Of a stretch of DNA of 58,441 nt, positions 1 through 57,975 are shown one piece after another. Both the position numbers and the translations under genes were made by a program. The first letter of the stretch is position 1. Each line of letters opens with the position of its first letter. The notes below the pieces were generated by a model. That model saw only the letters and a program-made list of their open reading frames with translations. It was not told the DNA's origin and ran no database searches. This DNA comes from a virus. The stretch is taken from IMG/VR virus record IMGVR_UViG_3300017917_002605, positions 110,471 through 168,911 of that record; one strand, written 5' to 3'.

Positions 1-2448
1 AGACACCACTGTTGTATTGTTGATTACCACAGGTTGTGCAGCATCAGCCACTTGTTTTCTCTGTTGAACACCTACATCATTTGATGCGCTTGCAACCATG
101 GCACCAGTTGGTGATTTTTGTGGTGGTGGTTGTGGAACAGGTTGTGATTTACCAGTTGATACATCAGATGCCTTACCGTCTTTACCTGCGACCAAAACTG
201 GTTGACCAGGATTAACCGGGTTATCCGGTGTTGGCATAGAACCTGTAGCTTGTACGTGCCAATCTTCATTAGGAATAGGTCTGGTCAAACCAAACTTTTC
301 CAACCATCCAGTTGGCCTATCACGTGGTCCTGCAAGAGCGTTGATACCAGCTTCACCTTTTGAATTGATATCGATGGCTTCACCAGTTAAGTGTTTGCTG
401 CCTTTGCCTTTACCCAAAGGAGGCATAGGTTCAGCAACCATCTTTCTTGCTGCAGCTTCATTGCCACCAACTTGAGCAAGTTTTGCATCCCACAATTCTT
501 TTTGTTTTTCATTACTGCGTACACCAGAAGTAACCATCAACTTCTTACCGGTTTCTGCCTGGAACGCAGCCGCCATTTTGGCAACTCTTTCTTCAAGTGT
601 AGATTTGAAACTTGAAATATCTACACCAGAATTTTGTTTTGTCACAACAGCGGAAAGTGCAGGTACTTTACCGGAAGCAACTTCTTCTTTCTTTGGTGTT
701 GTTGGTGCAGCTGCCACTTGTGTGGTTGGAGGTTTCACTGCTTGTGGTGCAACCTGGCCCATACCTTCACGAATCAAAGCAACAACAGTTTGTGCTCTAC
801 CTTTAACTTGTTTGTACCACTGACTGTCAGTTAATTCATCGGCAGCCTTTTGGAAATCTCCAGCGGCAAGTGCAGCAGCGGTATTCTTAAATTTCTTATA
901 CCATCCACCACCCATGTTGAATGCAAGGTCGATAAGTGCAGCACGACCTTTTTCATTTGCTTTGTCGTACCCTGGTGATTTCTCGGCCATCTTTTTGTGA
1001 TGTTCATAGTCTTTTGCAAACAGAGCATCAATCTCCTGCATTGTGAATTCTCTATCCCATTCTGGAGGCAAAGTTTTTCCATCACCAATCAGATGACCAA
1101 CACCGACAGTCCATAGTCCAAGTGAATCTTTGTATGGTCTTGTTCTTACACCTTCGTGTTTTTTAATCATGGCCATAATGGACTTGTCATCACCACTAAT
1201 TGAAGGCGCCTTAACTTCTTTTGTTGGTGCCTCAGGTTTTCCAGCAGGAGGTTGTTGCTTAGTTACTTTTTCTGCCTTCTGTTTTTCCATTGTCTCACGC
1301 ATTTCTGCGGCAGACACTTCACCCAATCCCATACGAGAACGAACAATTTCATCTCGACCGGTGTATTGTGCGGCCTTTTCTTGTTCCTCGGTACGTCTAA
1401 TTTCTTCTTCGGTGTATTTCGGATACATCGATTTGGCTTGTTCTGCCGTAGGACCACCTTGTCCACCACGGCCGCCACCGGCACCAACTTCTTTTTGTTT
1501 TGCAGCTGCCGCAGCATCAATTTGTTGTTGTACTGTTTTGCCGGCATCTTTTGCGTCAACATTTATTTGTGATTTGCCTGTGTCTTTAGGCATTTCTAAT
1601 TCTTTTGGTTTTTCCTCTTTTCGCTTTATAGGAATACCAAAGAAATCCATTACACTATAGAACTTGTCTGAGACAAACTTACCAACTTCACCAAAGAAAC
1701 TCTTGACTGATTCCCATAGTGGTTCCAAAAATTCACCAACCTTACCAATAGCCTTGGTCAGGTTTTCTAAAGTGAAAGTATCTTTAATCCAGTCTAAGAA
1801 TTCACCAGACTTTTCTTTAATTGTTTCCCAAAGTTTGCCGCCAACAATCCATTCGTCCCATGCGGAAACGATATCGTCCCATAGACCTTGAAAGAATTCG
1901 ATGAGATTCAATGCACCATACACCGCAAGAATCAAAACGTTGGGGTCAGCCAACATCTTAATGAGACTTGCCCACCAAGTTGTTTTGGTTTTCACACCTT
2001 TAGTGGTGTCTTTCCTTGCGGTTGGTTTTCCTGCTTTATCGACACGTTCTGGTGTACGTTTCTCTTTTTCTTTTTCACGTTGAACACCTAGTGCTTCTTC
2101 TCTCTCGCCAGCTTTTAGAAAATGTGCATCTGCACCCAAAGCAGGTTTCAATTCTTTTGCTTTGGTTATCTTAACAATGTTCTGACGAATAACGTTGAAA
2201 TCACGACTCATGCCTGCCATGGTCATGGAGTTTTTAGTCAGAATCGATAAGTCGGCCGATATATCGGACAGATGTTCTTTTTGGTCAGACAGTTGTTCAG
2301 GTTGTTGTGTAACCTTTTCAACCTTGGTTTCTTTTGCGGGTTTCTTGCTACCAAATACTTTTTCACCAACTGCACCAAGAAGACTTGTTTTCTGTGTCTT
2401 CTTTTTTGGACCAAATTCTTTTTTGATTGCGTCAAGTAGTTTTGCCAT
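1..2448 (-). CDS. Tape-measure-like tail protein with GH24 lysozyme and M15 peptidase domains (C-terminus cut by window edge)
   Basis: 816 codons are visible and the frame runs off the left edge, so the C-terminus is missing. The start ATG overlaps the stop of the upstream gene (TAATG), implying translational coupling. Residues about 70-95 (NSMTMAGMSRD...) match a segment of the neighbouring 929-aa protein. A hydrophobic stretch lies at about 160-195. A T4-lysozyme-type (GH24) domain starts near residue 425 with the catalytic triad E432, D441 and T447 in T4 lysozyme spacing (E11, D20, T26). A second hydrolase domain at about 620-735 has the M15/VanY zinc pattern: H686 and D693 in KHLTGEAID, and H731 in DWH. 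A 'VINN' motif near the visible end resembles the neighbour's C-terminus. Inferred role: tail-lumen or hub protein that cuts glycan strands and peptide stems during infection. It could alternatively be a baseplate hub lysin unrelated to length control. Confidence 0.85.
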   Translation of the reverse strand, partial: MAKLLDAIKKEFGPKKKTQKTSLLGAVGEKVFGSKKPAKETKVEKVTQQPEQLSDQKEHLSDISADLSILTKNSMTMAGMSRDFNVIRQNIVKITKAKELKPALGADAHFLKAGEREEALGVQREKEKEKRTPERVDKAGKPTARKDTTKGVKTKTTWWASLIKMLADPNVLILAVYGALNLIEFFQGLWDDIVSAWDEWIVGGKLWETIKEKSGEFLDWIKDTFTLENLTKAIGKVGEFLEPLWESVKSFFGEVGKFVSDKFYSVMDFFGIPIKRKEEKPKELEMPKDTGKSQINVDAKDAGKTVQQQIDAAAAAKQKEVGAGGGRGGQGGPTAEQAKSMYPKYTEEEIRRTEEQEKAAQYTGRDEIVRSRMGLGEVSAAEMRETMEKQKAEKVTKQQPPAGKPEAPTKEVKAPSISGDDKSIMAMIKKHEGVRTRPYKDSLGLWTVGVGHLIGDGKTLPPEWDREFTMQEIDALFAKDYEHHKKMAEKSPGYDKANEKGRAALIDLAFNMGGGWYKKFKNTAAALAAGDFQKAADELTDSQWYKQVKGRAQTVVALIREGMGQVAPQAVKPPTTQVAAAPTTPKKEEVASGKVPALSAVVTKQNSGVDISSFKSTLEERVAKMAAAFQAETGKKLMVTSGVRSNEKQKELWDAKLAQVGGNEAAARKMVAEPMPPLGKGKGSKHLTGEAIDINSKGEAGINALAGPRDRPTGWLEKFGLTRPIPNEDWHVQATGSMPTPDNPVNPGQPVLVAGKDGKASDVSTGKSQPVPQPPPQKSPTGAMVASASNDVGVQQRKQVADAAQPVVINNTTVVS

Positions 2449-5237
2449 TATGCCATCACCATTTCAGCAAACACTTCATCAACAACGCTAGCAGTTTCTT
2501 TCTTATCATCTGTTGTTGCGGTGTTGTTAGATGTACTTGAGTTGTTATTGATAACTGTTGGTTCGTTAGCAGACATTTCTAGTCTTTGTTGTTCAGCAAC
2601 TTCAGCAGACGCCAAGGACAAATCAGAACCAGAAGTTGTCGAACTTGAAGGTTCGGAAACAGTTGATGGTGTTGCCGCAAGACTTGCCGCTGACGAACTT
2701 GCCCCACCGCCTGAAGTTGCCGAAGGTGCAGCAGAAGTAGATGATTCACCACCAGAAGGAATTATTGCCGCAGACTCTGGAACAGCGCTAGGAGAAGTTG
2801 CCGAGGTGGATGATGCGCCACCACCTTCTGTGAAGATACTTTTAGCATCCGTATCTGATAGGGAAGCCACCAGTGATGGTGCCTGGTCCATGCCCATGCC
2901 GGCGGCAACTTTACCGAAAGTCTTTAATTGTTCCGCAGGAGTTTTTGCGGCACCCATTTCTGCACCGGCAGATTCCATTGCTTGTCTTGTTGGACCACCT
3001 GTACCCATACCAAAAAGTTTCGTCAGTCTGTCATTAAGATTTGCAGCTGCGCCTTTTTGTTCTGGTGTTTGTGCTACCTGTTGTTCCAATTCTTTAGAAA
3101 TGGTATTCACAGGCACAGGTTTTTCACCGGCCTTTGCCAATGTTTGAACACGCATTCTTTCGAAGTCACCAGCAGCAATCAGAGCAGTTGTGATATCGTT
3201 ATCCATTTCTGCAATCTTTTCTGGTGGTGCACCGTCAGCAATTGCTTTCTCTTTTGCTTTTTTAATTTTTCTAACAAGACTTATGGTTTCATCACGTTTC
3301 TTTTCATAGTAAGATGCTTGTTCAACCAAAGACTTGTCTTTTTCACCAACAAGGTCCATCTTTGTTGGCATCTTTTGGTCTGCTGCCGCAACAGCTTCTG
3401 TAGATTGTTTTGTTGGTGTTTGTTCTTGTTCTTTACCAATATCTGCTGGTGTTGCCGGTGTTGTTTTCTCTGGTTTAGATTCTGTCGATTCTTTTTTGGT
3501 GGCCGCATCCATTGCTTTATCAGCAGCTGCCGAAGGAGAAACTTCTTTCTTCTCTGGTTGTGCAGAAACTTCAGGTGCCGCAGATTTTGGATTAGATTTG
3601 AATGGATACCAAGGACCAATACTTCCTAATTCCCATGGTCCTTTCTTAACTTCCATGCCATCAAAGATGGTTATTCTTTTGCCACCCAACAAAGCAGGCA
3701 AATCAACTGAAATTGCTGGTATAGTAAAACCTATTGCGGGTATTGTTGGCAGTTTTATTTCAGGAATACCAACGTTGTTCACCACCCAATCTTTAATTGT
3801 GGTAACAACTTTACTGATACTATCAATCACAGGGTTGATGTACTCACCAACCGTATTGAACAGTGTTCTTATTGATTCTTTATCGAATAAACCAAAGGTT
3901 AGGAAATCAACAATACCACCAAGGCCTGCAATGATTGCTTCTTTTAGGTCTCCCGTTTCTTGCCATGCTTTCCATCCGTCAATCAGACCATTGACCAACG
4001 AGGCAACCAATGTACCAATAACGAATACTTTACCTAAAACTTTTAGTAGGTTGGATGGTTTAAAGATGAATCGTAAAGCTTTGAATAGACCATCTTTCAC
4101 CCAATTGATAATGGTACCAATGAAGTCTTTGATGTTGAAACCACCACCATCAGAAGATTTTTCTGAACCTTTAATTGGTGATGTGTTTGATTTTTCTTTA
4201 CTCTTTAATTTTGCACGTTCAGCTTCTAACGCAGCTTCACGTTCATCCGCCTTCAAGAAATACATGTCGGCACCGGTCGCAGCTTTCTTAGAATCGTCTT
4301 TGCCTTCGACCTTGCTTTTGCCTTTCTCTAATACACTGTTGGTAATTTTGATTACGTTCTGACGAATGACATTAATATCTCTGCTCATTCCAGCCCAAGT
4401 CATTGAGTTCTTGGCTAAAATGGAAATGTCATTTCTAATGTCACCTAATTCTTCACCACCGATGCCTTCAGGTGCAGGCGAAACAGAACTGGTCATATCG
4501 CCAGGTTGTTTTAGTGCATTGTATCCTTTACCGAATACTTTCTCACCAACAGCGCCCATCAGTCCAGAACCAAATGCGTTTCTTGGGTCCAGTTTTTCTT
4601 TTAGTCGTTCTTTTGTTGCAACTGCTATACCACCAAAAGTGCCGGCGCCTTCATCGGTTGCTTTTCTATACAGTTGTGCAAGTCTGGTTCCTGAACCGTA
4701 ATCTTTTCTACCAGAAGAAACGTCAGCGCCAGATTTAACACGGTCACTTTCTTTTTTCTGCTTTTGTTCCTCATTCTTTACAGTCTGAGGTTCTTCTGTT
4801 GGTTCAGGTGCAGTTGATTTTTGTTTTTCACGTTCAATCTTTTCTTTACGTGCTTCTAGTGCGGAACCACGTAGCGGTTTACCTATTTTGTCAAGGTATT
4901 CCGGTGGAACAACTTCTTCTGGCACAGGTTCCTGTTTTACAAGTTCCAATGCCTTCGATGTTACTGCTTTTTCAGCAGCATCAAATGCGGCCATTTCTTG
5001 AGGCGTTGTACCTAAGATATCCGCTTCAGATTTTTGAACTAATGCTTGTTGTTCTGCTTCCGTTACTTCTTCTTTAGGAGAAAGTAGAGCATTCAGTTTT
5101 TCAGCAATTTCTTTCTTTGCAGAACGACCGGCTTTTCCTGTTTTAGGATTAACTACCGCCCATGCGGCACCCATCCAACGATATGTGGTGCCTTCAAAGG
5201 TCACTTCAGCGTTTAGTTCTGGTTTAAAATCTGCCAT
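2448..5237 (-). CDS. Tape-measure-like tail protein, candidate gp29 analogue
   Basis: 929 aa, starting at an ATG that overlaps the stop of the frameshift extension upstream (TAATG). The protein is rich in Ala, Lys, Glu, Ser and Thr, has long charged helical stretches and a hydrophobic region at about 390-450 (LLKVLGKVFVIGTLVASLVN), a pattern common in tape-measure proteins. Residues about 268-295 (NSMTWAGMSRDINVIRQN) match the downstream lysozyme-bearing protein. The C-terminal 150 residues are low-complexity Ser/Ala/Gly/Thr followed by a 'VINNNS' motif. Position directly after a gp26-like chaperone with a frameshift extension is the classic place for a tape measure. T4 gp29 is about 590 aa, and no direct similarity to it is visible to me, so the tape-measure call rests on context and composition. 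Confidence 0.65.
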   Translation of the reverse strand: MADFKPELNAEVTFEGTTYRWMGAAWAVVNPKTGKAGRSAKKEIAEKLNALLSPKEEVTEAEQQALVQKSEADILGTTPQEMAAFDAAEKAVTSKALELVKQEPVPEEVVPPEYLDKIGKPLRGSALEARKEKIEREKQKSTAPEPTEEPQTVKNEEQKQKKESDRVKSGADVSSGRKDYGSGTRLAQLYRKATDEGAGTFGGIAVATKERLKEKLDPRNAFGSGLMGAVGEKVFGKGYNALKQPGDMTSSVSPAPEGIGGEELGDIRNDISILAKNSMTWAGMSRDINVIRQNVIKITNSVLEKGKSKVEGKDDSKKAATGADMYFLKADEREAALEAERAKLKSKEKSNTSPIKGSEKSSDGGGFNIKDFIGTIINWVKDGLFKALRFIFKPSNLLKVLGKVFVIGTLVASLVNGLIDGWKAWQETGDLKEAIIAGLGGIVDFLTFGLFDKESIRTLFNTVGEYINPVIDSISKVVTTIKDWVVNNVGIPEIKLPTIPAIGFTIPAISVDLPALLGGKRITIFDGMEVKKGPWELGSIGPWYPFKSNPKSAAPEVSAQPEKKEVSPSAAADKAMDAATKKESTESKPEKTTPATPADIGKEQEQTPTKQSTEAVAAADQKMPTKMDLVGEKDKSLVEQASYYEKKRDETISLVRKIKKAKEKAIADGAPPEKIAEMDNDITTALIAAGDFERMRVQTLAKAGEKPVPVNTISKELEQQVAQTPEQKGAAANLNDRLTKLFGMGTGGPTRQAMESAGAEMGAAKTPAEQLKTFGKVAAGMGMDQAPSLVASLSDTDAKSIFTEGGGASSTSATSPSAVPESAAIIPSGGESSTSAAPSATSGGGASSSAASLAATPSTVSEPSSSTTSGSDLSLASAEVAEQQRLEMSANEPTVINNNSSTSNNTATTDDKKETASVVDEVFAEMVMA

Positions 5238-5443
5238 TATCGTCTAGACTTTGCTGTTTGTTTTTGTAACTGAATTCTCTCTTTTTCTTCCTGAAGATAT
5301 TTCACTAATAACTCTATGTAAATTGTACGTTCCCAAGGTAACATATTTTCCAATTCTGTCAGACTATACTTGTGATGTTGCATCAGAGCAAAATTGGTTT
5401 GATAGTAATTACTCAGAGTATCATAACGGAAGCTTATACGAAA
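5237..5443 (-). CDS. -1 frameshift extension of the gp26-like chaperone (68 codons)
   Basis: This open frame lies -1 relative to gene 26 and begins at the slippery site inside its last codons. It has no ATG, GTG or TTG until M21 of the extension (5381-5383), and no Shine-Dalgarno precedes that ATG. Read through from gene 26 it adds 68 residues, ending just before the 929-aa tape-measure-like gene with a TAATG overlap. It contains MQHHKYSLTELENMLPWER, resembling the short helical chaperone domains (lambda T, P2 E types) made by frameshifting upstream of tape-measure genes. The predicted fusion is 310 aa. The open frame and slippery site are seen directly; frameshifting is inferred. Confidence 0.7.
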   Translation of the reverse strand, partial: FRISFRYDTLSNYYQTNFALMQHHKYSLTELENMLPWERTIYIELLVKYLQEEKERIQLQKQTAKSRR

Positions 5444-6168
5444 AAATTTTGCAGTCCTTTAATTGTAATCTTTTCTTCATAACCACACTTTGGACACTTG
5501 AACGGAACGTCTGCCTTAATTTCAGGCATAGTGTCAAAAAATTGTTTGATTTTCTCCAAGTCTTTTTGTTGGAGACTATCAATGAATTCTTCTAGTTCTT
5601 CACGTGTGTTGTCTTTTGCATAGTAAATGTTATCACTGTCATACACGTAGTCCAAACAATCAATTAGAACGTTCAAAAGAATCTCATCTTCTGTCTTGTT
5701 CTCATATTTTTCTGCCATTTCAAATGTTGGGTATTTTAAAACAATACCTAGATTTGGTGTCAGTTGAATCTTGTTTGTGTGTTCAGGATTCATCGTTGGT
5801 TCAATCTTTGTCAGATTCAAATCATATTCAAAGATACCAATACATTTCTTTTCTTCACCAGTTTCTTCATCTTTAACGTTGTTGTTGCACTTATAACGCA
5901 TTTCAACAACTTCTTCAACAGACCTTGCACGTAGATTCATAAACAAGTATTCAAGGTCAAAAGTTGGAAGACTTTCGATATTGATATCATCCAGAATACA
6001 GTTCTTTAGAACCTGACGAATGGTTTGAATCGTTTCTTTGGTGTCATCTGATTGTGACGCCATCATAAACAACTTTTGTTCCTTTACTAAGAAAGGACGG
6101 AATTTAATTTTCTTCTTGTTTGAAGGCAAGGTCACTTCATACACAGGCACATCAAGTTTAGGTAACAT
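5434..6168 (-). CDS. 26: gp26-like baseplate hub assembly / tail chaperone protein
   Basis: 244 aa (T4 gp26 is 208), in the T4 base-plate protein family (gp26/gp51 type). It starts at an ATG seven bases after GGAG. The N-terminus (MLPKLDVPVYEVTLPSNKKK) is the typical family opening. Four cysteines, C94, C109, C225 and C228 (the last two as CPKC), could form a zinc site. The last residues (KGLQNFFV) coincide with a slippery heptamer, and a -1 frame stays open to the next gene. In T4 gp26 is needed for hub assembly; here the position immediately before the tape-measure-like gene suggests a tail assembly chaperone role. Confidence 0.82.
   Translation of the reverse strand: MLPKLDVPVYEVTLPSNKKKIKFRPFLVKEQKLFMMASQSDDTKETIQTIRQVLKNCILDDINIESLPTFDLEYLFMNLRARSVEEVVEMRYKCNNNVKDEETGEEKKCIGIFEYDLNLTKIEPTMNPEHTNKIQLTPNLGIVLKYPTFEMAEKYENKTEDEILLNVLIDCLDYVYDSDNIYYAKDNTREELEEFIDSLQQKDLEKIKQFFDTMPEIKADVPFKCPKCGYEEKITIKGLQNFFV
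5443..5449 (-). promoter_or_regulatory. Slippery heptamer A_AAT_TTT for -1 ribosomal frameshifting
   Basis: In the gene 26 frame the codons are CAA AAT TTT TTC GTA TAA. The heptamer A_AAT_TTT fits X_XXY_YYZ with X=A, Y=T, Z=T. A -1 slip re-pairs both tRNAs on AAA TTT and enters the 68-codon extension two codons before the zero-frame stop region ends. I see no clear stimulatory hairpin downstream by eye. Confidence 0.65.
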
Positions 6169-6184
6169 AATTTCTCCAAATTAA

Positions 6185-6979
6185 TTAAAATAATATTCTA
6201 TTGAATGCACGACCAACGGTACCACCGATGGTGTTTCCAAACAACTGAGAACCTTTCGATAGTAGATTGTTGGCAATAGAACCTCCAAAGATAGAAGTTG
6301 CTGCGGCACCCAAATCGTATCCACCTTTGTAAACCACTTTATAATTGGTATACGCAAATGATATAGACAAACGATGGAAACCTTCTTCACCCCAACTCAA
6401 TGGTTGAGGAGAGATACCTACTGGAAAAGCTTCAATTAATTCCACAGCATAAATTTGTTTGATAAACTCATCATACTGAATAATCTTAATATTAGTTAGG
6501 TAACGGGTTTCGTTATCTGCTGGAAATCTAACGTTCCAGGTATCGGATGGGTGAATGCATTCCATCCATTGGTCAAACAATTTTCTTTCGTAAAATTCAT
6601 TGGTACACAAGAACGTAAGATTGATATCGTTGAATTGTGACGCATATGGAATTTTACTGATTGGTCCGTAAATTTTACGGTCAGCAGTCTGTAGTGTTCT
6701 ACCAGGCAATTCAGCAGCTTCACACTGTAATGCCAAATAACGTGACATTGCAGGATTGGAAGATGTAGATGCTGGATTTGCACCTAATCCACCAAAGATG
6801 GAGTTGGTAATATCTGTAACTGCGCCAGTCACGGAACCAATGATGTTGTCGATAACTGAGTTTCCAACAAATTTGTTTACTGCCGATGGAATGGGCAAGA
6901 CCACCTCAAAACGGTTGTTTTTGGCAAAACCGTCTTTGATTTTGGCATTAGCCAAGAATTCATTTGGTGAAAATGGCAT
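6185..6979 (-). CDS. 54: Tail-tube-fold baseplate protein, gp54-like tube initiator
   Basis: 264 aa from the ATG that overlaps the upstream stop (TAATG); a longer frame to 7066 runs back inside the preceding gene and is unlikely. It carries the gp19-superfamily pattern: an early ligand strand (NRFEVVLPIP), CEAAELPGRTL, a Tyr-Gly-Pro strand and LFDQWMECI. A Gly/Ala/Ser-rich insertion sits at about residues 35-75. The C-terminus is also Gly-rich and hydrophobic. In T4, gp54 sits with gp48 on the baseplate and nucleates the tail tube; gp48 is encoded nearby on the other strand. The family is well supported, the specific gp54 role less so. Confidence 0.7.
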   Translation of the reverse strand: MPFSPNEFLANAKIKDGFAKNNRFEVVLPIPSAVNKFVGNSVIDNIIGSVTGAVTDITNSIFGGLGANPASTSSNPAMSRYLALQCEAAELPGRTLQTADRKIYGPISKIPYASQFNDINLTFLCTNEFYERKLFDQWMECIHPSDTWNVRFPADNETRYLTNIKIIQYDEFIKQIYAVELIEAFPVGISPQPLSWGEEGFHRLSISFAYTNYKVVYKGGYDLGAAATSIFGGSIANNLLSKGSQLFGNTIGGTVGRAFNRILF

Positions 6980-7575
6980 TAGAATTTTTTCCTTGAATCT
7001 GACCAAACTCTGCTTGCACTGGCACCAGAGAAGTTGTGTACAGGTAATAAAGCCGCAATATCCCACTCACTTGCATCTATTTCCACAAAACGTGACTGTA
7101 TGTGAGAATATAGATATCTTTTGATGCAGGCCTGCAACTCATAGACCTTAGAAGCGGAGGCTAACAATTGATAACTTAAACGTAATCTTGTCGTTGAATC
7201 GTATTTGGAATTGTTGGCGTACTCACTCAATTTGTTCAAAAGAATAATTCTGTCTTTAGGATGAATGTAGTGTAAGTTTAAACCTAAAAATCCATTTGGA
7301 TACATTTCGATTGGTATCACTAAAGGGAATCGGTCAAAATACGGCAAAACATCTTTGTATTTTGCATCATATACGAAATAAAACATTCTACCAATGGCAT
7401 TTGCATCGACCTTAGTGCCATCCAATCTGGACTTGTCAGACAACAGATTTTTACGTGCGTTTGCCTGTCCAATGTTTTTAAATTTTTGAATGAGCCAATC
7501 TCTGGACTTGGCACTTCTAGGTGCAAATCCTTCTTTGGATAGTTGTTCTTGAATACGGTCTATTAGATACGGCAT
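6979..7575 (-). CDS. Conserved T4-like phage structural protein of unknown function
   Basis: 198 aa. It contains a compact conserved core, GRMFYFVYDAKYKDVLPYFD followed by RFPLVIPIE and GLNLHYI, of a kind I associate with small proteins in T4-like phages of aquatic bacteria, and a basic C-terminus. No catalytic motif or signal peptide is visible. It is coupled by TAATG to the gp54-like gene downstream and preceded by a late-promoter-like box at 7582-7589. Location between gp4 and tail genes suggests a head-completion or baseplate role, but function is not identified. Confidence 0.75.
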   Translation of the reverse strand: MPYLIDRIQEQLSKEGFAPRSAKSRDWLIQKFKNIGQANARKNLLSDKSRLDGTKVDANAIGRMFYFVYDAKYKDVLPYFDRFPLVIPIEMYPNGFLGLNLHYIHPKDRIILLNKLSEYANNSKYDSTTRLRLSYQLLASASKVYELQACIKRYLYSHIQSRFVEIDASEWDIAALLPVHNFSGASASRVWSDSRKKF

Positions 7576-8127: not shown

Positions 8128-9456
8128 ATGGCACTTTTCTCTCTAACAGACATTAGTTTTGGTTCCAAAAACAGTGTATTGAGTGGTCCTTTATCAGCAC
8201 TATTTCAATCTCCGTTCAGTACCTCGTCTTTACGATATCCAATTGACGTTGGTAGTTACGATAAGGGACACTATATGTTGTTCCATATTAACGTACAGAA
8301 GAAAACCGCATTTGACGGTATCGACAAGTACAACGGCGCTGATGCTCTAAATCTGATGGCAAACGCCGATATTCTTTCATCAATTAAAGGTCAATTGTCG
8401 GCACCAGGTTCCATCGGTGGAATGATTGGTGAGGTTAGTTCTGCAATCTCTAACGGTATTTCTGCTGCTACTAATGCTGTGAGTAAAGCTGTCAATGAGG
8501 TGGTTGGTGGAATTAAAAGTGGTATCAACGACCTAACGAATTCATTAGGCCTAGGTAATTTAGGCATCGGCAAGGCAATCGATAAGTTTAGTTTGGGAAT
8601 GCAATTTGGTTCTTCTACACCGGTCAACACAAGTCCTTTGCGTACCACAAAAAGAACCGCAACAACAATTGCATTGTACATGCCAGATACGTTGGTATTT
8701 AACTATTCACACGGTTTTGATACACCTTCCATGACAGAGGCAATGGGTGGTATTGGTCAAGCAGGCCAGGCCGCAAAATCAGTTTATGATGCCGTAAAGA
8801 ATGCACCAGAAGGACAAAAGGTTTCTTCTGCTAAAGAAAACTTAAAACCATTTGCAACAGAAGCTGCTGGTGGCCTTGCAGGTAAATTGATGGCCGCTGG
8901 TGGTGGTAATTCCGAATCTACCAAAAAGATTATCATGGCTTCACAGGGTATTGTGACCAACCCACAACTTGAAGTCATTTACTCAACAACAAACCTAAGA
9001 CAATTCTCATTTGAATTCATGTTCTATCCTCGTTCACAAGCCGAGGCAAAACAAGTAATGAGCATCATTGAAGAATTTAGATTTCATGCTGCACCTGAAC
9101 TAGATGGTTCTGGTGGTGGACGTTATTTGATTCCACCATCAGAATTTGACATTGAGTTTCATATGAACGGTGCACCAAACCCTAACATTCCTAAAATTTC
9201 AACTTGTGTGTTGACTGCAATTGATTTGGATTATGCACCAAATGGATGGTCAGCATATGAAGTTCCAGGACAAGTCAGGGCACAAACTGGCGGCTCAGGT
9301 ACACCTACCGCTGTTCGTATGACACTACAGTTCCAGGAAACTCAGATGATTACAAAAGAAATGATTCGTCCAAACTACAGAAGCGAGGGCAATCCAAGAA
9401 GTGTTCTGGAACAATTCATGGGTGCAGGTTCTCGCAAAAACGATGGTGGTTACTAA
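8128..9456 (+). CDS. 48: Baseplate tail tube cap gp48
   Basis: 442 aa (T4 gp48 is 364). The diagnostic N-terminal stretch is RYPIDVGSYDKGHYMLFHIN. Residues about 75-165 are a Gly/Ala/Ser-rich amphipathic insertion, and a second Ala/Gly-rich insertion lies near 200-270. The C-terminal half contains a tube-like fold region (FSFEFMFYPRSQAEAKQVM). gp48 caps the baseplate and, with gp54, provides the platform for gp19. Stop and next start overlap (TAATG), so it is coupled to gp53. Confidence 0.85.
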   Translation: MALFSLTDISFGSKNSVLSGPLSALFQSPFSTSSLRYPIDVGSYDKGHYMLFHINVQKKTAFDGIDKYNGADALNLMANADILSSIKGQLSAPGSIGGMIGEVSSAISNGISAATNAVSKAVNEVVGGIKSGINDLTNSLGLGNLGIGKAIDKFSLGMQFGSSTPVNTSPLRTTKRTATTIALYMPDTLVFNYSHGFDTPSMTEAMGGIGQAGQAAKSVYDAVKNAPEGQKVSSAKENLKPFATEAAGGLAGKLMAAGGGNSESTKKIIMASQGIVTNPQLEVIYSTTNLRQFSFEFMFYPRSQAEAKQVMSIIEEFRFHAAPELDGSGGGRYLIPPSEFDIEFHMNGAPNPNIPKISTCVLTAIDLDYAPNGWSAYEVPGQVRAQTGGSGTPTAVRMTLQFQETQMITKEMIRPNYRSEGNPRSVLEQFMGAGSRKNDGGY

Positions 9457-10094
9457 TGGCTAAATTTTTCGATAAGTTCCCAAAAGAACTTTATACATTA
9501 GAAGAAAAACCACAATCTTTGGATTCTGTTACAAACATTTGTACCAGAATGGCTTTTGGTCAAGATTTCAAAGAGAATGCTGCAACTTATTATGAGTATG
9601 ACATACAAGAAGGTGAAAAACCTGAATTGATTGCTCACAAATTGTATGGTTCACCAGAACAACATTGGATTGTTTTGATGATGAATGATATTATTGACCC
9701 ATACTACGATTGGCCTATGAGTCAATCTGTTTTCAACGAATACATCAATACAAAATATTCAGAACAAGCTCAAGCAAATAATACCACAGGTATAAAATGG
9801 GCTGCAAACAATGTAAAGTCTTATTACATCAACGAAAAGAGAAGTGTTGTAGGTTCAAACGTTGTTACTGAAGAAAGCAGTGAAGTTGATTATGACACAT
9901 GGGTTGCAACTGATATTAGTTTGGATGATATAACTTTGGATGACGGAACAAAAATTATTATTGAGGTAAAGAAAACATCTAAAACTTATTTTGAATATGA
10001 AAATGAGTTGAACGAAAGTAAACGAAAAATTAAACTTGTTCGACCTGGCCTGGCAGGCTCACTAAACAAAGAATTTAAGAAGGTTATTAGTTAA
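9456..10094 (+). CDS. 53: Baseplate wedge protein gp53
   Basis: 212 aa (T4 gp53 is 196). Recognised by YEYDIQEGEKPELIAHKLYG and HWIVLMMNDIIDPYYDWPMS, the LysM-like core of gp53, which matches the T4 pattern 'LYWVLLMCNDNYDPYYGW'. In T4, gp53 is the wedge component that triggers joining of wedges around the hub. It is translationally coupled at both ends by single-base stop/start overlaps. Confidence 0.88.
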   Translation: MAKFFDKFPKELYTLEEKPQSLDSVTNICTRMAFGQDFKENAATYYEYDIQEGEKPELIAHKLYGSPEQHWIVLMMNDIIDPYYDWPMSQSVFNEYINTKYSEQAQANNTTGIKWAANNVKSYYINEKRSVVGSNVVTEESSEVDYDTWVATDISLDDITLDDGTKIIIEVKKTSKTYFEYENELNESKRKIKLVRPGLAGSLNKEFKKVIS

Positions 10095-11410
10095 TGGCAA
10101 TCGGTGATACCCTTAGTTATGCAATAGGCGATTTACTATTGATAACTAAAACGGCTACTGTTGACCTCCGTGATATGATGGAGGAACTGAACATTTACGA
10201 TAACTTGTTTCTGCCTGCAATGTCAGGAAACATTGTTGTTCGTGATGCAGTTGGTTTGGCCAAGCGTTTGAAATTTGACGGCACAGAATATATCAAAATT
10301 GATATCACCAAAGACGGTGATAACATGCGAATTGAGAAAACATTCCGTGTTTTTAAACTGTCAAACAAACGTGACCAGAACAGCACCTCTGAAATTTTTG
10401 TTTTACACTTTTGTTCCGAAGAAGTATTGTTTTCTGAACAAAAGAAAATAAACCAAGCATACGAAGACACATATAGCAATATTGCTCGTTCAATACTTGT
10501 TGATTACCTTGAAGTACCTTCACATAAGTTTATGGATGGTTTTCAAGACGAATCGTATGGTATCAAAAAAGTAAACATACCAAATCTAAAACCTTTTGCT
10601 GCAATAGATTGGTGTGTTCGCCGTGCATTGGACATATATGATGCACCTAGTTTTGTATTCTTTGAGAACAGATATGGTTTTAACCTTTGCAGTTTGTATT
10701 CTTTGATTGAACAAGAACCTATTGGTACAATTAACTTTGGTATGAAAAACTTTGGTGATGATATTGGTGTTGACTTTTTTGGTGCTCGTTCAAGTAACGT
10801 AATCAAAAACTTTGATGCCACTGAAGCAATTAAGTCTGGTTTGTTGGCCAGTAAATTTAAGGGTTTTGACCCAGTTACCAGAACATACTACAACAAAGAA
10901 ATTAACTTTGCTGAACTGTATGAAGGTCGACCACACCTAAACAAATACCCCTTTATTACAATGAATAAGAATCGTGATGGTAATTTACCAACACAGGAGT
11001 TTGATTCTAAACAGGCGGTTACACCTATGCAAAGTAACCAAAATTTGAGTAAATACGCACAATCAAAAGACCCATATCTACAAACAGACGATATGGAAAA
11101 TTACGAATTACAACGTAAAGGTATTTTTGCAAACTTGATGAACAGACGAATCAACATTGTTATGCCTGGTTCTGCTATGTGGACTTCAGGTCGAGTTGTT
11201 GAATTGGATTATCCAAGACGTTCTGCTCGTTCAACAAATGACGATAGTATTTTAGACGATAGATTATCTGGCAAGTATTTGATTGTTGCAACAAGACATA
11301 AGTTTGGTTTTAAGATGTATGAAACAATTATGGAAGTTGCAACTGACTCCAGTATGGAACCAAACCTTTACAATGATTCTGCTGAACAAGGATTGATTTT
11401 AAATGACTAA
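10094..11410 (+). CDS. 27: Baseplate hub protein gp27
   Basis: 438 aa (T4 gp27 is 391). It begins with a strand-rich region typical of hub proteins (LFLPAMSGNIVVRDAVGL) and contains IARSILVDYL, a hub-fold feature. The call is supported by overlap with gp5 immediately downstream (ATG at 11403 inside the last codons), as gp27 and gp5 form one trimeric complex. Expected role: the trimeric adaptor between tail tube and spike. Confidence 0.8.
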   Translation: MAIGDTLSYAIGDLLLITKTATVDLRDMMEELNIYDNLFLPAMSGNIVVRDAVGLAKRLKFDGTEYIKIDITKDGDNMRIEKTFRVFKLSNKRDQNSTSEIFVLHFCSEEVLFSEQKKINQAYEDTYSNIARSILVDYLEVPSHKFMDGFQDESYGIKKVNIPNLKPFAAIDWCVRRALDIYDAPSFVFFENRYGFNLCSLYSLIEQEPIGTINFGMKNFGDDIGVDFFGARSSNVIKNFDATEAIKSGLLASKFKGFDPVTRTYYNKEINFAELYEGRPHLNKYPFITMNKNRDGNLPTQEFDSKQAVTPMQSNQNLSKYAQSKDPYLQTDDMENYELQRKGIFANLMNRRINIVMPGSAMWTSGRVVELDYPRRSARSTNDDSILDDRLSGKYLIVATRHKFGFKMYETIMEVATDSSMEPNLYNDSAEQGLILND

Positions 11411-12458
11411 TGAACACTCAGCTGAAATTAAACGTGGCGAATTTGTTTGGTGGACCGGTGTAGTTGAAGATAAAAGTGACCCATTAAAATTAGGCCGTTG
11501 CAAAGTTAGAATTTTTGGTTGGCATCCTGAACAAAAAGAACAAATGCCAACATTTAACTTGCCTTGGTCGCAAGTTATGTTACCAACAAACAATACAGAA
11601 GTCTATGCACCAAAAAATGGTGACATGGTTGTTGGTTTCTTTATGGACGGAAGTGTTGGTCAACAACCAGTTATTATGGGTGTAATGCCTGCGATTCCAT
11701 TAACACAAGGTAATGCAGAGTATCCTTTCAGTGATTCTAGAACAGAAGAAGAATTGTTGAAGTCTCCTAGACCACCAAAAGAAAAAGAATATAAAACCGA
11801 TGGCACTGGCATCAAACTGACCGAAGAAGATACCGCATCATTGTATCCTTTGAATCTAGATGAACCAACTACCTCTAGACTGGCAAGAAATGATGAAGAC
11901 AGTATTGTTAAAACTTTTATCGAAGAACGAAAAAAGAATGTTGTAAAAGAAGTGCCTGTTGCTGAAGGTGAAGTTTGGTCTGAACCAGAAACAAAATATA
12001 AAACTGAATATCCATGGAACAACGCAATGGAATCAGAATCTGGTCACATACTAGAATTTGATGATACTTACGAAGCAGAACGAATTCATCTTGCTCATAG
12101 AAATGGTTCTTTTCAGGAATGGTTTCCTGACGGTGATAAAGTTGAAAAAGTTACCAAAGATAACTACACGATTATTATGGGTAACGACAAAGTTTATATT
12201 ATGGGCAAAGTCAATATCACCGTACAAGGTGATGCTGATGTGTATGTCAAAAAGAGTGTTCAAATGAAAGTTGATGGTTCCGTTACTGCTGTAATCGGTG
12301 GTGACGTAAAGGCCACAATTGGTGGCAGTGTTACTGCTGATATTAGTGGTGATGTAACAGAAACTGTTGGTGGTGCCAGAAATGTGAATGTTTCTGGAGA
12401 CTATAACATCACCGCTGGTAATTTCAAAGTCAGTGCTGGTACAATTAATCTGAACTAA
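11403..12458 (+). CDS. 5: Baseplate spike gp5 without lysozyme domain
   Basis: 351 aa, much shorter than T4 gp5 (575). Residues about 8-100 form the OB-fold (WWTGVVEDKSDPLKLGRCKVR; FGWHPEQ). Residues about 105-215 are an acidic, polar linker where T4 gp5 carries lysozyme; no Glu-Asp-Thr triad is present. Residues about 270-345 are octad beta-helix repeats (IGGDVKATIGGSV) forming the spike. It overlaps gp27 by eight bases and is followed by an unknown protein and a PAAR tip. Muralytic activity is instead encoded at 1-2448. Confidence 0.85.
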   Translation: MTNEHSAEIKRGEFVWWTGVVEDKSDPLKLGRCKVRIFGWHPEQKEQMPTFNLPWSQVMLPTNNTEVYAPKNGDMVVGFFMDGSVGQQPVIMGVMPAIPLTQGNAEYPFSDSRTEEELLKSPRPPKEKEYKTDGTGIKLTEEDTASLYPLNLDEPTTSRLARNDEDSIVKTFIEERKKNVVKEVPVAEGEVWSEPETKYKTEYPWNNAMESESGHILEFDDTYEAERIHLAHRNGSFQEWFPDGDKVEKVTKDNYTIIMGNDKVYIMGKVNITVQGDADVYVKKSVQMKVDGSVTAVIGGDVKATIGGSVTADISGDVTETVGGARNVNVSGDYNITAGNFKVSAGTINLN

Positions 12459-18307: not shown

Positions 18308-20233
18308 ATGTCAACAATTAAAATTACACAATTACCAATTTTAACATCACCAGATGCGAATACCCAAAACACGGTATTTGTTGTCGTTGATAAGAGTAGT
18401 GGTGTTGCAACCACAAAACAATTATCTCTGGCAAATCTTGAAATTGCTGTTGATGATACCGCTGTCCTGGCTTATGCTCATGCCAACGGCGCATACAATA
18501 CCGCAAACGCCGCATACACTCAAGCAAACATTGCAACACCAGCTTTCGCACAAGCTAATACAGCAAACAGTACTGCAAACGCTGCTTTGGTTCTTGCGAC
18601 AACTGCAAACACTGTTGCCAATTTAGGATTTAATCTTGCAAACGCAGCGAATACATTGGCAACTTCAGGATTTAATTTAGCTAACGTTGCCAATACAACC
18701 GCAACATTGGCACTAGGCATTGCAAACACCGCAAATATTGTTTCTGCTGCAGCTTTCAACCAAGCAAATATTGCAACACCAGCATTTAATCGTGCTAACG
18801 ATGCATATGTTCATGCAAACTCAGCATACAATCTTGCAAACAGTATTGTTATTACAGCAAACGTTGCATACTCCGACCAAATTTACGCACAGGCAAATTC
18901 TGCTTATAACGTTGCAAACTTGGCTGTACAGTCATCAAACGTTGCACAAACAATAGCTTTATCTGCTTACAGTCAAGCAAACGTGGCAACAATCAATGCT
19001 GATTTTGCAATCGCAACAATTAACACTGTTTTTGCACAAGTAAACACAAATTCCAACACAATTCAAACCGTTTGGAACCACGCAAACTCTGCTTATGATT
19101 TTGCAAATAATACTTCAAATACTGTAATAAATGTTTCAACACATGCAAACTCTGCTTATGATTTTGCAAATACTTTATCATTAACGTTAAGTACTCAGTT
19201 TATTACAAACGCATCAAACACCGCAAATTCTGCAAATGTAACAGCACATGCAGCATATGACACCGCAAATACCGCAACTCAGGCCGCAGCTCTTGCTTTA
19301 CTAAACAGCACTTCTGGTGGTAACACAGCAAACGTTGCTCTAGTTAATGCAAATGCATCTTTCAATTTGGCTAATACAGTAAATGCACAAGTTATCATTG
19401 CAAACACAACCGCAAACTTTGCAAATAGTTTAGCTTCAACCGCAAACGTCACTGCAACCAACGCTTTGGCCACAGGACAAGGTGCTTTTGCTCTTGCAAA
19501 CGTTGTTAATGCCGTTGCACTATCCGCAAACACGACCGCCATTGCCGCATATAATCAAGCAAACGTGGCAACCAGTAATGCTGACACAGCATATATTCAT
19601 GCAAACTCTGCTTACAATTTGGCGAACAGTTTGAATGTTACATTGACAAGTACAGTAGTAACATTGTCAAATACATCTGCCGAAGCAAATATTGCCAACA
19701 TTACATCCAGAGCTGCATTTACTAAAGCCAATTTGGCATACGATACTGCAAATACTGCTTTGGCTTTAGGTTCTCTTGCTGTCACACTAGAATCTTCCGC
19801 AAACCTATCTTTACAGAGAGCTAATGCGGCATTTGACCAAGCTAATACTGCAAATGCTATGGCTTTTGGTGCTTATTCCACTGCAAATACCGCAAGACAA
19901 GAAAATAACGCAACATTCGATAGACTGACCGTTGCATGGAATTCTGCCAATACCACAGCTAACAATTTGGTTTCTACAAATTCCAACGTTGCAAATTTAA
20001 CGATTACTGTAAGTTCTGTATATAATCTTGCTAATACCAATGCCAACGGAATTGCAAACCTGGCAAATTCTATTGTATATGTTGGAACTGCGCCTGCAAA
20101 TAACAAAGGCACAACCGGTGATACAAAAGGTATGGTTTATTTGGCCAACGATTACTTCTATTTCTGTACCACAAACTATGTTGATGGTACTGCAAATATT
20201 TGGAGTAGAATTGCTGCAACTGACGCTTGGTAA
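18308..20233 (+). CDS. Ala-Asn heptad-repeat tail fibre protein
   Basis: 641 aa. Residues about 55-570 are a nearly continuous run of seven-residue units of the form A-Y/F-x-x-A-N-x (NRANDAYVHANSAYNLANS), predicting one very long trimeric coiled coil. The first 50 residues (TIKITQLPILTSPDANTQNT) form a short attachment domain. The last 45 residues are a small globular cap (KGTTGDTKGMVYLANDYFYF). Likely a rigid shaft projecting from the baseplate. AGGACA precedes the ATG. The repeats make the DNA locally repetitive (GCAAAC and GCAAAT). Confidence 0.8.
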   Translation: MSTIKITQLPILTSPDANTQNTVFVVVDKSSGVATTKQLSLANLEIAVDDTAVLAYAHANGAYNTANAAYTQANIATPAFAQANTANSTANAALVLATTANTVANLGFNLANAANTLATSGFNLANVANTTATLALGIANTANIVSAAAFNQANIATPAFNRANDAYVHANSAYNLANSIVITANVAYSDQIYAQANSAYNVANLAVQSSNVAQTIALSAYSQANVATINADFAIATINTVFAQVNTNSNTIQTVWNHANSAYDFANNTSNTVINVSTHANSAYDFANTLSLTLSTQFITNASNTANSANVTAHAAYDTANTATQAAALALLNSTSGGNTANVALVNANASFNLANTVNAQVIIANTTANFANSLASTANVTATNALATGQGAFALANVVNAVALSANTTAIAAYNQANVATSNADTAYIHANSAYNLANSLNVTLTSTVVTLSNTSAEANIANITSRAAFTKANLAYDTANTALALGSLAVTLESSANLSLQRANAAFDQANTANAMAFGAYSTANTARQENNATFDRLTVAWNSANTTANNLVSTNSNVANLTITVSSVYNLANTNANGIANLANSIVYVGTAPANNKGTTGDTKGMVYLANDYFYFCTTNYVDGTANIWSRIAATDAW

Positions 20234-21810: not shown

Positions 21811-24800
21811 ATGGCACTTGATACCAATTTTAATACAAATCCATATTATGATGATTTCGATGAAACCAAAAAGTTTCTTCGAACCCTTTTTAAACCAGGT
21901 TTTGCAGTTCAAGCTCGTGAACTGACCCAAGTACAAACACAACTACAGAATCAAATTGGTAAATTTGGTTCGCACGTTTTCCAAAACGGCAGTTTGGTTC
22001 TTGGTGGACAAACTGCTTTACAAGACGCAACTTATCTAAAAATTGATAGCACATATCTTGGTGATTCAGTAAATTATGCTGATTTCCAAGATAAAACAAT
22101 TCTTTCTGCTGACGAAAGCAAACGTGCCGAAGTTATTCTTGCCGTTCCTGTAGAGGGTTCAGACCCAATTACTTTGATGGTAAAACAAATTTATGGTAAT
22201 CCTTTTGTTGCAGGTGATACCATAAAGACAGACGTTTCAGACACCACTTTTGCTACTATTCAAGATGTTGGTGAAGGACAAGTATTTTCTGTTAATGAAG
22301 GTACATTCTTCTATGAAGGATTCTTCATTACCAATGCACAACAAATCGTACCTACTGAAAAATATAGCAACACAACAGCAAATGTTCGTGTTGGTTTTGA
22401 AATTTCAGAATCTTTTGTAACTGCTGCATCCGACACATCACTTCTTGACCCAGCTCAAGATGCCTCCAATTATCAAGCACCAGGTGCTGATAGATTTAAA
22501 ATTGATTTGGTACTTTCAACCAGAGCATTAGATTCTACTGACGATGAGCGATTCATTGAAATGGCTCGTGTTGAAAACGGTGTTCTTGTAAAAGTCGTTA
22601 AGTATCCAATTTACTCTGCACTTGAAGACACATTAGCTCGCCGTACCTATGACGAATCAGGCAATTACACTGTTCGTCCTTTTACGATTGCGTTAGAAAC
22701 AAATTCTGCTAATACCGCACAGACAAACGTATTGTTGTCTCCTGGTAAAGCTTACGTTTTTGGTTATGAATTTGAAACTACAGGCACAACAACTGTAACT
22801 GTAGATAAACCAAGAACATATGTTGATGTTTCTAACCAAAGAATTACTGCTGACTATGGTAACTTTGTTTACACAACAAATCACCGTGGTTCTTTCCCTA
22901 TCGATAGTTTGAAGACTGTTGACCTACATTGCGTACAAAATGGTAGTATCAACCTCACTTCAACTGCAACTTACACCAATACAAAAATTGGTACAGCTCG
23001 TGTTAAATCTATCGAATATGAAACCACAGGTAGTTCTTCCAACACAGGTTCCAATGTATATCGTACTTACTTGTTTGATGTAAACGTAGGTTCTATTACA
23101 GGCAATGTCGGCACCACTGGTGGTGTTTCAACATCCAATACCACACACGTTCAATTGTCAAACACCGCAGTAAGTTATTTCAGCACAGTAAATGATGCAT
23201 ATAAGGGTGCTAAGTTCCGTATTACTGCCGGTCCTGGTTTAGGAAATCAAGTTAAGACCATCACTGGTTTCAACGCAACAACACAGTTTGTTTCTTTGAA
23301 TGAACCTCTAACTGTTGCTCCTCAAGCAAACACACAATTTGCTATTGACTTCGAATTTAATGACCTTGAGTGTCTTTCTGTTGCAAATGCGACCAACCAG
23401 GCAATTATTTCTTCTTCAAATATTGACGTTCGTTCAAAAGATTTGGCGACCGCTTTTGAAGATGTTTTCTTATCTGAAGTCACCAACGAATCTCAAATTT
23501 TCCCACTAGGACAAAATTACGTTGTTCCTGGCCGCACAGGTGATATTTCTCTGTCTTACAAAAGACTGTTTGAAAACCAGGCTTTTGCTGGCAATCAAAC
23601 CACATTCACCCTAGGCTCTGGTGAAGCTATTGCTTCTGCTTCATCTGAGTCTTCAATTAACCAAGCGTATTACATCAGTGTAACTAACAGAAGAACATCT
23701 ACTGCTTACGCAAACGGTGAAATTGTTCGTGCATCCAATGTTTCTATTGATTCTGGTACCGCAACAATTACAGTATCTGGTGCGGCCGATATGTTGGCTA
23801 ACGTTATTGCAGTAATTGATGTAACAAATCCTTCTGCAAAAACCAAAACTTTCCGTTTGGCAAACAACACAGTACAAACAACTTCTGCACCAGATTTCAT
23901 TAATGTGTTTGGTAACAATGCAGTTAATGTTTACACTCAAAACTGCCAAACACATATTGCCAACACTTTTGTTGTTAAGACTCCAGATACACCACAATCT
24001 CTATTCGTTTCAGACGTTTATTCTCTGAATACAGTACTTGATTTCCGTGGTCTTGAAGTTACTGAAGCGAACAAATCTAGTGCTGTTAATATCACATCAC
24101 GTTATACTTTAGTGAATGGTCAAAAAGATTCATATTATGACCACGCATATATCAAATTGAAACCTGGTCAATTGCCACCTGATGGTCCGTTGTTGGTTAC
24201 TTACGACAGATTTATTTCTGCTGATGCTGGTGGTTTTTTTACCGCAGACTCTTACGTAAATGGCGGTTTCGAATATGGTAACATTCCTAAATTCACATCA
24301 CCAACAACTGGTTTTGAATACAATTTAAGAGATTGTTTGGATTTCCGTCCTGTTCGTGCTGACGGTTCTTCTACTGTATCTTTCTACACCACAAAAAATC
24401 CTAAAACACCAGAAAACGGTTCAGACATTATTGTTGATTATTCTTACTATCTACCACGTATCGATAAAGTGGTTTTGAATAAGAATCGTACATTTGAAGT
24501 TGTTAAGGGCATTCCAAACCTAAGACCAAAAGAACCAGAAGACAAGTCTGAAGCAATGACAATGTTTGTTCTTGCTTGCCCGCCATATATTTCTGATGTT
24601 TCTGAAATTCAAGTTTCTGCAATCGACCATAAACGTTACACAATGCGTGATATTGGTGCATTAGAAAAACGTATTTCTAATCTAGAATATTACACTTCTT
24701 TGTCACAACTTGAACAAACAACTTTGACTAAACAAGATTTGACTATTCTTGACAGTCAAAATTTACCACGATTTAAAAATGGTATTGTTGTAGATGCTTT

Positions 24801-57444: not shown

Positions 57445-57975
57445 ATGACTGTACTAGAACGCACACCAAAAAACGTCAATTTTCTGCAACCGAATAAGTT
57501 TCAGTTGAACTTTTCTCGTTTGCCGAATATGCAGTACTTTTGCCAGTCAGTAAATATACCTGGTGTATCTTTGGCAGAAGTGCCACGTAACACACCATTT
57601 GTTGATATCTACTCGCCTGGTGAAAAACTAATCTATGAAATCCTGAACGTCACATTCATTGTTGATGAACATCTACAATCATGGATTGAACTACATGATT
57701 GGATGCGAGCAATGACATTCCCTACCGAGTTTGAAGAATACAAAGACTTATCAAAGTTGTCTAAGTTTTCAAACAAGGCAATGCCACAATTCTCTGACGG
57801 ACAACTAACTGTACTTTCCAATCAAAACACACCAACATTCCGATTCAAGTTTGTTGATTGTTTCCCTATTTCAATTTCGTCAATCGTATTTTCATCTACC
57901 GATTCCCCAGAAACGGTAATGACGGCAGACGCATCTTTCAGATTTTCCTATTACGATATTGACAAAGTAATTTGA
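57445..57975 (+). CDS. Tail-tube-fold virion protein (gp19 superfamily)
   Basis: 176 aa. It shows the tube-fold pattern: PNKFQLNFSRLPNMQYFC, CQSVNIPGVSLAEVP, YEILNVTFIVDEHLQSW and ELHDWMRAMTFP, parallel to CKTAQLPG in gp19 and CEAAELPG in the gp54-like protein. T4 gp3 has the same length, but I see tube rather than terminator features. Probably a specialised tube ring at the baseplate or neck end. Followed by UvsY. Confidence 0.7.
   Translation: MTVLERTPKNVNFLQPNKFQLNFSRLPNMQYFCQSVNIPGVSLAEVPRNTPFVDIYSPGEKLIYEILNVTFIVDEHLQSWIELHDWMRAMTFPTEFEEYKDLSKLSKFSNKAMPQFSDGQLTVLSNQNTPTFRFKFVDCFPISISSIVFSSTDSPETVMTADASFRFSYYDIDKVI

Follow-up and report, generated by a model that had tools for sequence, protein, structure and literature searches.

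The 58,441-nucleotide window analyzed here (positions 110471-168911 of the 168,911-base virus record IMGVR_UViG_3300017917_002605, from a T4-like virus of bacteria) begins with two large adjoining genes on its minus strand, whose products we call A and B. As judged from their sequences, A and B are true paralogues, and B, but not A, carries two peptidoglycan hydrolase domains. The two genes probably descend from one ancestral tape-measure gene in the baseplate-hub operon of a T4-superfamily phage, with A acting as the tail tape measure and B as a tube-packed paralogue that bears muralytic cargo. The features that underlie this proposal are listed with their window coordinates.

2448..5237, minus strand: protein A, 929 amino acids (aa), proposed tape measure (open reading frame (ORF) and module mapping)
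1..2448, minus strand: protein B, 816 of 844 aa inside the window, proposed tube-packed muralytic paralogue (ORF, open at the window edge)
796..1164, minus strand: GH24 lysozyme domain of B (Pfam, PDB sequence search, AlphaFold model)
352..603, minus strand: M15/VanY peptidase domain of B (Pfam and motif)
4356..4409, minus strand: NSMTWAGMSRDINVIRQN segment of A, residues 277-294 (motif search)

The genes for A and B overlap by one base, 2448. The C-terminus of B, missing from the window, was recovered from the record; the full-length protein has 844 aa and ends in ...QPVVINNTTVVSSTTVVNTTKNSVISCERDVLGRLVTRNA. An earlier, sequence-only reading of the window had called the two genes tandem paralogues on the basis of shared motifs, all of which are present in both proteins by motif search: NSMTxAGMSRDxNVIRQN starts at A277 and B73, its LMGAVGEKVFG/LLGAVGEKVFG lead-in at A226 and B23, and VINN lies at A895 and B808. 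The similarity is longer than that reading had seen. A blastp comparison aligns A224-474 with B21-248 at 35% identity (109 bits, E 2e-28); with the low-complexity filter the match retains 84.7 bits (E 8.6e-21), as compared to 0.36 for a reversed B control, and profile comparison of A with B gives a probability of 100. The blastp similarity, with and without the filter, rules out a relationship limited to a short motif. The aligned region of ~250 residues consists, in a 13-row alignment, of a coil part containing NSMT...RQN and a hydrophobic helical part (WKAWQETG...FLTFGLF in A). A search of the record with the 816-aa part of B matches B itself and A (E 2.6e-26), and with a profile of the module, A and B were the only copies found in the whole 168.9-kb record.

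Protein A comprises an N-terminal extension (1-223), the coil module (~224-330), the hydrophobic module (~370-490), a low-complexity region, and the VINN peptide at 895. Protein B consists of the coil module (~21-130), the hydrophobic module (~155-260), a linker, GH24 (429-551), M15 (616-699), and the VINN peptide at 808. Hydropathy analysis marks segments A397-415, A433-451, and B171-189, and RB69 gp29 has hydrophobic segments too; models of the segments of A and B are helical, with low confidence. The C-terminal ends are a weak point, as the VINN-type similarity alone falls below significance in the profile search; by eye and uncounted, Asn-rich ends look alike in many complete proteins of our survey. 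It is extremely improbable that A and B are tail fibers or adhesins that merely share a short motif. Nothing was found in favor of that reading. It is opposed by the ~250-residue similarity and by the helical and hydrophobic prediction, itself of low confidence, and it was rejected because no fiber or adhesin family was found in A or B with Pfam or PHROG; a collagen match in the A protein of one relative (L025; L numbers are our locus labels) lies below its cut-off.

The GH24 and M15/VanY domains are confined to the distal gene of the window phage, as the sequence-only reading had stated. Both exceed their Pfam cut-offs (GH24, PF00959, 59.2 bits against 22.3; M15/VanY, 30.6 bits against 25), and they are the sole Phage_lysozyme and VanY matches found in the record. 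Protein A gives a single Pfam match, below its cut-off, and no enzyme domain was found in it. Both active-site motifs are intact in B: E432, D441, and T447 of E-x8-D-x5-T, which we take to be the GH24 catalytic motif, and H686, D693, E728, and H731 of SxHxxGxAxD ... ExWH, which we take to be the M15 zinc motif. The closest sequence relative of the GH24 domain in the PDB is the T4 gp5 tail lysozyme (1.2e-17), and in the AlphaFold model of B this domain is the region modeled with confidence, with the T4 lysozyme fold (TMt 0.75 for 189l). In gp5 of the window phage, no lysozyme domain was found with Pfam or PHROG. A search of ten gp5-position proteins at E 1e-3 found a peptidoglycan-hydrolase family in none, though the annotation of one of them, phiM12 gp5, has a muramidase note.

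The neighborhood of A and B is that expected of a T4 gp29-type tape measure, with the order gp26-gp51-A-B close to genes for a tube-like protein, gp48, gp53, a gp27-position protein, and gp5.

5237..5383, minus strand: 48-aa ORF in the gp51 position (synteny; short like its cyanophage counterparts)
5434..6168, minus strand: gp26 baseplate hub protein (T4_baseplate), anchor of the survey (family match)
6185..7066, minus strand: second tail-tube-like protein, gp54/gp19.2 position (family match and synteny)
8128..9456, plus strand: gp48 tail tube cap (family match)
10094..11410, plus strand: gp27-position tail protein, phrog_350 (PHROG match)
11403..12458, plus strand: gp5 spike with OB and C-terminal needle domains (family match)

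The minus-strand genes run in the order gp4-type head closure, gp2-type end protector, second tube-like protein, gp26, 48-aa ORF, A, and B. Beyond the window edge, B is adjoined on the opposite strand by gp32, a name given by synteny only (L003:10974-11870). The T4-like structural genes of the record include gp48, gp53, the gp27-position protein, gp5, baseplate wedge proteins, terminase, sheath, tube, portal, and the major head protein. A short gp51 in cyanophages has been noted (PMC3037559; this and the other papers cited are represented by their accessible text). Two tail-tube-like proteins of phrog_45 lie in the window, one at 6185-7066 in the gp54-like place beside gp26 and one at 57445-57975.

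Hub position and architecture support the description of the pair as tape-measure-like, and profile links through genes in the same place of other phages add to it. A tblastn search with A against 50,697 phage records (E 1e-5) gave no match, and none of the five stretches matched in a scan of viral contigs with A alone is a relative; the PHROG matches of window B are to enzyme-domain PHROGs or unknowns only. L028, L030, L031, L033, L036, L037, and L038 have first genes, four of them decided single genes, whose N-terminal part has a profile probability of 99.4 with A and 98.9 with B. For the single genes of L051, L079, and L089, it is the hydrophobic part that matches, at 99.9 with A and 99.2 with B. 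L100, which connects to A by way of its blastp similarity to L089, has a tape-measure PHROG match at 2.7e-17. Such matches are also given by the 657-aa ORF of Vibrio phage VH7D (E 1.1e-8) and by phiM12_166 of a Sinorhizobium phage (two, 1.8e-5 and 6.5e-5), both in the same place, and by A of S-CREM1 outside its M15 domain (1.7e-9 and 3.2e-8). The motif GG..GEAGPE, which we take to be typical of tape measures, occurs in 6 of 134 tape-measure-position rows, which hold duplicates and an L099 match unlike the real motif and thus represent four distinct proteins, and in 0 of 1239 other ORFs; the window pair lacks it. Direct homology to T4 gp29 was rejected after phrog_1283, hhalign, iterative hmmsearch, and a PDB sequence search with A5 all failed to find it. 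The gp29 family, phrog_1283, has no match in the record; that no gp29 homologue was found elsewhere in it speaks for A and B as the tape-measure genes. These comparisons support the statement that A works like a tape measure and do not support the statement that it is a gp29.

The occurrence of the pair was examined in the best 80 of at least 594 gp26-anchored metagenomic contigs, a gene being counted as tandem if an ORF of at least 140 aa that was not gp27-like came next on the same strand, no more than 150 bases away. Forty of the 80 contigs were decidable, 12 being tandem and 28 single; the remaining 40 end early or have a first frame that runs off the contig. Isolates with the order gp26-gp51-A-B are S-PM2, P-SSM2, S-CAM3, S-CREM1, S-CREM2 (with an unnamed small gene at the gp51 place), S-N03, S-H34, S-SCSM1, and S-SZBM1. 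A single large gene precedes gp27 in S-CRM01 and ACG-2014i, and either one or two large genes occupy the site after gp26 in the phages examined. Similarity between A and B at E < 1e-4 is present in 19 of 26 pairs from contigs and isolates, for which the lowest reversed-B value is 0.004; with the added S-SZBM1 pair (E 2.9e-12), the count is 20 of 27. Fifteen of these 20 align over at least 100 columns, and the other five align over 34-79, which is weaker for whole-module paralogy.

Most single-gene relatives are nearer to A than to B. In a tree of the module, window A groups with four other A rows and two single genes (L089 and L051), and B rows lie elsewhere. The fork has moderate support (80/96), the rooting is not fixed, the window B row (WIN_B) and L079 form long branches, L079 and the 'A' rows of L006/L007 fall on the B side, and L023 was labeled A by us though it has no readable second gene. 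The duplication-plus-specialization scenario of the sequence-only reading holds as to paralogy and fits the data, but for these reasons its direction is left unsettled by the tree. In the tree of a second tandem lineage (L042, L043, L053, L066, and L083), A and B are not separated. The simplest reading is that A would be the orthologue of the single gene and that B would stem from an ancient duplication, followed in other lineages by losses or by duplications of independent origin.

Enzyme cargo varies among these relatives. In 26 B proteins (the 27 pairs minus L044), where one protein may count more than once, Pfam finds Phage_lysozyme in 8, VanY in 6, M15_3 in 4, and M23 and a GDSL lipase in 1 each. 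The 28 single proteins contain glucosaminidase, Phage_lysozyme2, and SLT (2 each) and M23, GH19, VanY, and SLT_3 (1 each). Protein A carries GH19 in S-CREM2, S-N03, S-B68, and L053, a tail lysozyme in S-PM2 and L043, and VanY in S-CREM1; no Pfam enzyme was found in A of the window, L004, L025, S-SM2, S-CAM3, L034, or L066. In S-PM2 both members are loaded, with Phage_lysozyme2 in A and M23 in B; in the S-SM2 and S-CAM3 pairs, a Pfam enzyme was found in neither member. B of L006, L007, and L008 keeps M15 without GH24. The picture is of cargo that appears to move among A, B, and single genes while the ten gp5 proteins checked are empty. The earlier equation of the muralytic member with the distal gene is therefore true in the window but does not extend to the relatives, in which A or B may carry enzymes. 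Other activities may also occur. Residues 66-218 of S-PM2 p209 (L012:9880-13383, A position) match PF01129, an ADP-ribosyltransferase family (25.1 bits, cut-off 22.3), and this N-terminal extension is possibly an enzyme that enters the host cell along with the tape measure. A GDSL lipase-like match in the A-position protein L035:10921-13086 is below cut-off (19.2 bits against 32.9), and the GDSL match in one B protein has a value of 1.2e-5; given these, cargo may not be limited to peptidoglycan enzymes.

Virion proteomes place both members in the particle in two of the three cases readable for both genes, S-CREM2 and S-SCSM1, to the extent of the published text accessible. In S-CREM2, which has a tail of ~418 nm, proteins 208 and 209 were detected with 73 and 71 unique peptides and were called endolysins, possibly located in the capsid (PMC10665884). 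In S-SCSM1, which has a tail of 173 nm, ORF213 and ORF214 are virion proteins judged not likely to be structural (PMC9602691). By synteny, both pairs correspond to A and B. These counterparts are thus recorded as virion lytic enzymes and not as fibers in the text accessible. The annotations, which include endolysin, lysozyme, or carboxypeptidase, favor a role of B (and A) as lysis endolysins or capsid-internal enzymes. We consider such a role quite unlikely, as the enzyme domains account for a small share of the proteins and were not found in many of them, the place in the hub operon is fixed, and the record has a separate SleB-type hydrolase. A free-standing lysis endolysin in particular was rejected, because the enzymes of B are fused to a tape-measure-like module in the hub operon and this separate hydrolase exists. 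The SleB-type Hydrolase_2 protein, which has a hydrophobic N-terminus and lies outside the window (record 106537-106881; L003 ORF 7887-8462), is itself a candidate lysis endolysin of the window phage.

The comparison of tail length with helical length suggested by the sequence-only reading was made for seven isolates with electron microscopy values, S-CRM01 (one large gene, tail 140-170 nm) being entered as 155 nm, the middle of its range. An alpha helix rises 0.15 nm per residue. Over the six isolates without S-CREM2, A misses the tail length by a mean of 17 nm and A+B by 112 nm; B misses by 38 nm, only because S-CRM01 is counted as B = 0. The length of A correlates with the tail with r 0.98 over all seven and 0.45 (p 0.37) without S-CREM2. 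For S-CREM2 alone, the summed chains fit (0.15 nm x 3021 aa = 453 nm versus 418 nm, the tail being 35 nm shorter). A serial ruler, in which A and B are placed one after the other and the tail length follows from their sum, is nonetheless very unlikely and was rejected, since it fits one of seven isolates and its 112 nm mean miss in the other six compares with 17 nm for A. The lengths have the magnitude expected of a tape measure yet are silent on whether A or B is the ruler; in the five isolates with B, the fit of B equals that of A, and for this reason length was dropped as proof that A is the ruler. For the window phage, the predicted tail is ~139 nm if A sets the length and ~127 nm if B does.

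That A and B fit the tail about equally is also what would be seen if they formed one hetero-oligomeric bundle, for example of 3+3 chains, held together by the shared coil and C-terminal peptide and with both members needed for length and channel. Such a mixed ruler is also favored by the resemblance of the two proteins in 20 of 27 pairs, by their similar peptide numbers in the S-CREM2 virion, and by the fact that both are long in S-CREM2. S-CRM01 and ACG-2014i, however, have one large gene, 28 of the 40 decidable contigs are single, and in the window lineage the A and B modules group apart with no homogenization visible. On balance, we regard the mixed bundle as rather unlikely.

Several observations weigh against A as the ruler and B as its tube-packed companion. 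Among the five isolates that have B, with S-CREM2 left out, A misses the tail length by 15.4 nm and B by 14.3 nm, and the S-CREM2 tail is 183 nm longer than one helix of its A protein (235 nm) could reach. In S-SZBM1, which has an extended tail of 113.6 nm, A and B (67 and 66) are not among the 30 proteins of the proteome in the text accessible (PMC9146016). Window A has zero PHROG matches, and, when compared by hhalign with seven gp29 sequences, each of the A, B, and single groups stays below the 30% listing limit (L089 alone, 27%). The AlphaFold model of the shared module of A is poor, with a predicted local distance difference test (pLDDT) value of 49. Seven of the 27 pairs, L044 (partial), L084, L099, P-SSM2, S-CAM3, S-N03, and S-B68, lack significant A-B similarity. 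The single gene of S-CRM01 is nearer to A in S-CREM2 and S-B68 and slightly nearer to B in S-N03, and it carries GH24, the enzyme of B in its relatives; because of this mixed kinship and the GH24 domain, the gene is possibly a mosaic and not simply an A gene. Finally, VH7D has a gp5 without a lysozyme domain and a tape-measure-like protein without an enzyme-family match. Complementarity between gp5 and tape-measure cargo is therefore not a rule.

Our preferred mechanism, with A as tape measure and B as tube-packed paralogue, allows the following sequence of events. Protein A would act as the tail ruler. Since B has retained both the coil and the hydrophobic module, along with a C-terminal peptide resembling that of A, it would be packed in the tail tube together with A. 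Its GH24 and M15 cargo, in the C-terminal half, would lie at the baseplate end if B has the orientation supposed for tape measures. Upon sheath contraction, A and B would both leave the tube, and the lysozyme and peptidase of B would cut peptidoglycan, the task of gp5 in T4, a protein in which no such domain was found here. The hydrophobic helices of A and B might enter the inner membrane to form a DNA channel. The hydrophobic stretch of T4 gp29 has been proposed as such a channel (Hu et al. 2015, cited in PMC11948020).

T4 gp29, a baseplate hub subunit and tail length determinator, shares with the window proteins the hub neighborhood, a long chain, a hydrophobic stretch near the middle, and an Asn-rich C-terminal end. 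It differs in having no detectable sequence homology to them, in being encoded by one gene (as in RB69), and in that the T4 tail lysozyme sits in gp5. The lysozyme domain of gp5 is the best PDB match of the B GH24 domain, which here is on B and was not found in gp5. Cyanophages such as S-PM2 (p209/p210) and P-SSM2 (016/017 = T4-GC 13/14) have two large tandem genes in the same place after gp26-gp51, and the members of such pairs are often paralogous. The S-PM2 proteins are paralogous (E 1.4e-18, both phrog_5453) but carry other enzymes than the window pair, and P-SSM2 016/017 have no significant mutual similarity. Muralytic domains inside tape measures are known from mycobacteriophage TM4 (PMC1796659) and enterococcal phages (PMC10194240), and PMC3271669 deals with repeats inside one tape measure. 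The variant here is two side-by-side paralogous genes, with cargo on either. Sle1 of a Streptomyces contractile particle has a similar coiled coil, predicted transmembrane hairpin, and variable C-terminus, and is a tape-measure-related cargo loaded in the particle, as we propose for B; it has no tandem paralogue pair in a phage hub operon in the account accessible (PMC13277306). Tandem paralogous tape measures in T4-like phages were undescribed among the titles and abstract openings of the matches listed, subscription papers being mostly outside their scope.

The tape measure of pelagimyophages and cyanomyophages was described as not identifiable in the accessible text of PMC7029224, and the pair may fill this recorded annotation gap in marine T4-like phages. 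With the odds against it, many T4-superfamily phages outside the coliphages could have a two-gene tape measure, in which a ruler and its co-packed paralogue form a mixed bundle, with cell-wall enzymes (GH24, GH19, M15, M23, tail lysozyme; for S-PM2 an ADP-ribosyltransferase-like domain as well) moved between its members and the tail lysozyme having left gp5 for the bundle; the pair or its single-gene form would be both the missing tape measure of PMC7029224 and the 'endolysins' of cyanophage virions. If our assignment is true, syntenic 'endolysins' are tail rulers with enzymes attached, and the annotation of marine T4-like phages changes. S-CREM2, with its 418 nm tail, and S-CRM01, with one gene, would then be natural tests of contractile-tail length and entry-enzyme packing.

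Other features were noted in passing. In the baseplate cluster of the window, a 641-aa protein (18308-20233) has zero PHROG matches at 0.01, and a 1998-aa protein (21811-27807) belongs to phrog_358 (function unknown). In Melnitz-3 (L013:12871-18687), the strand opposite the tape-measure-like gene bears, downstream of it, annotated curli genes (CsgG, CsgF, and curlin repeats) together with an adenylate/guanylate cyclase. S-SCSM1 has one 2196-base gene (L115:1544-3739), possibly a fusion, where its relatives have gp48 and gp53.

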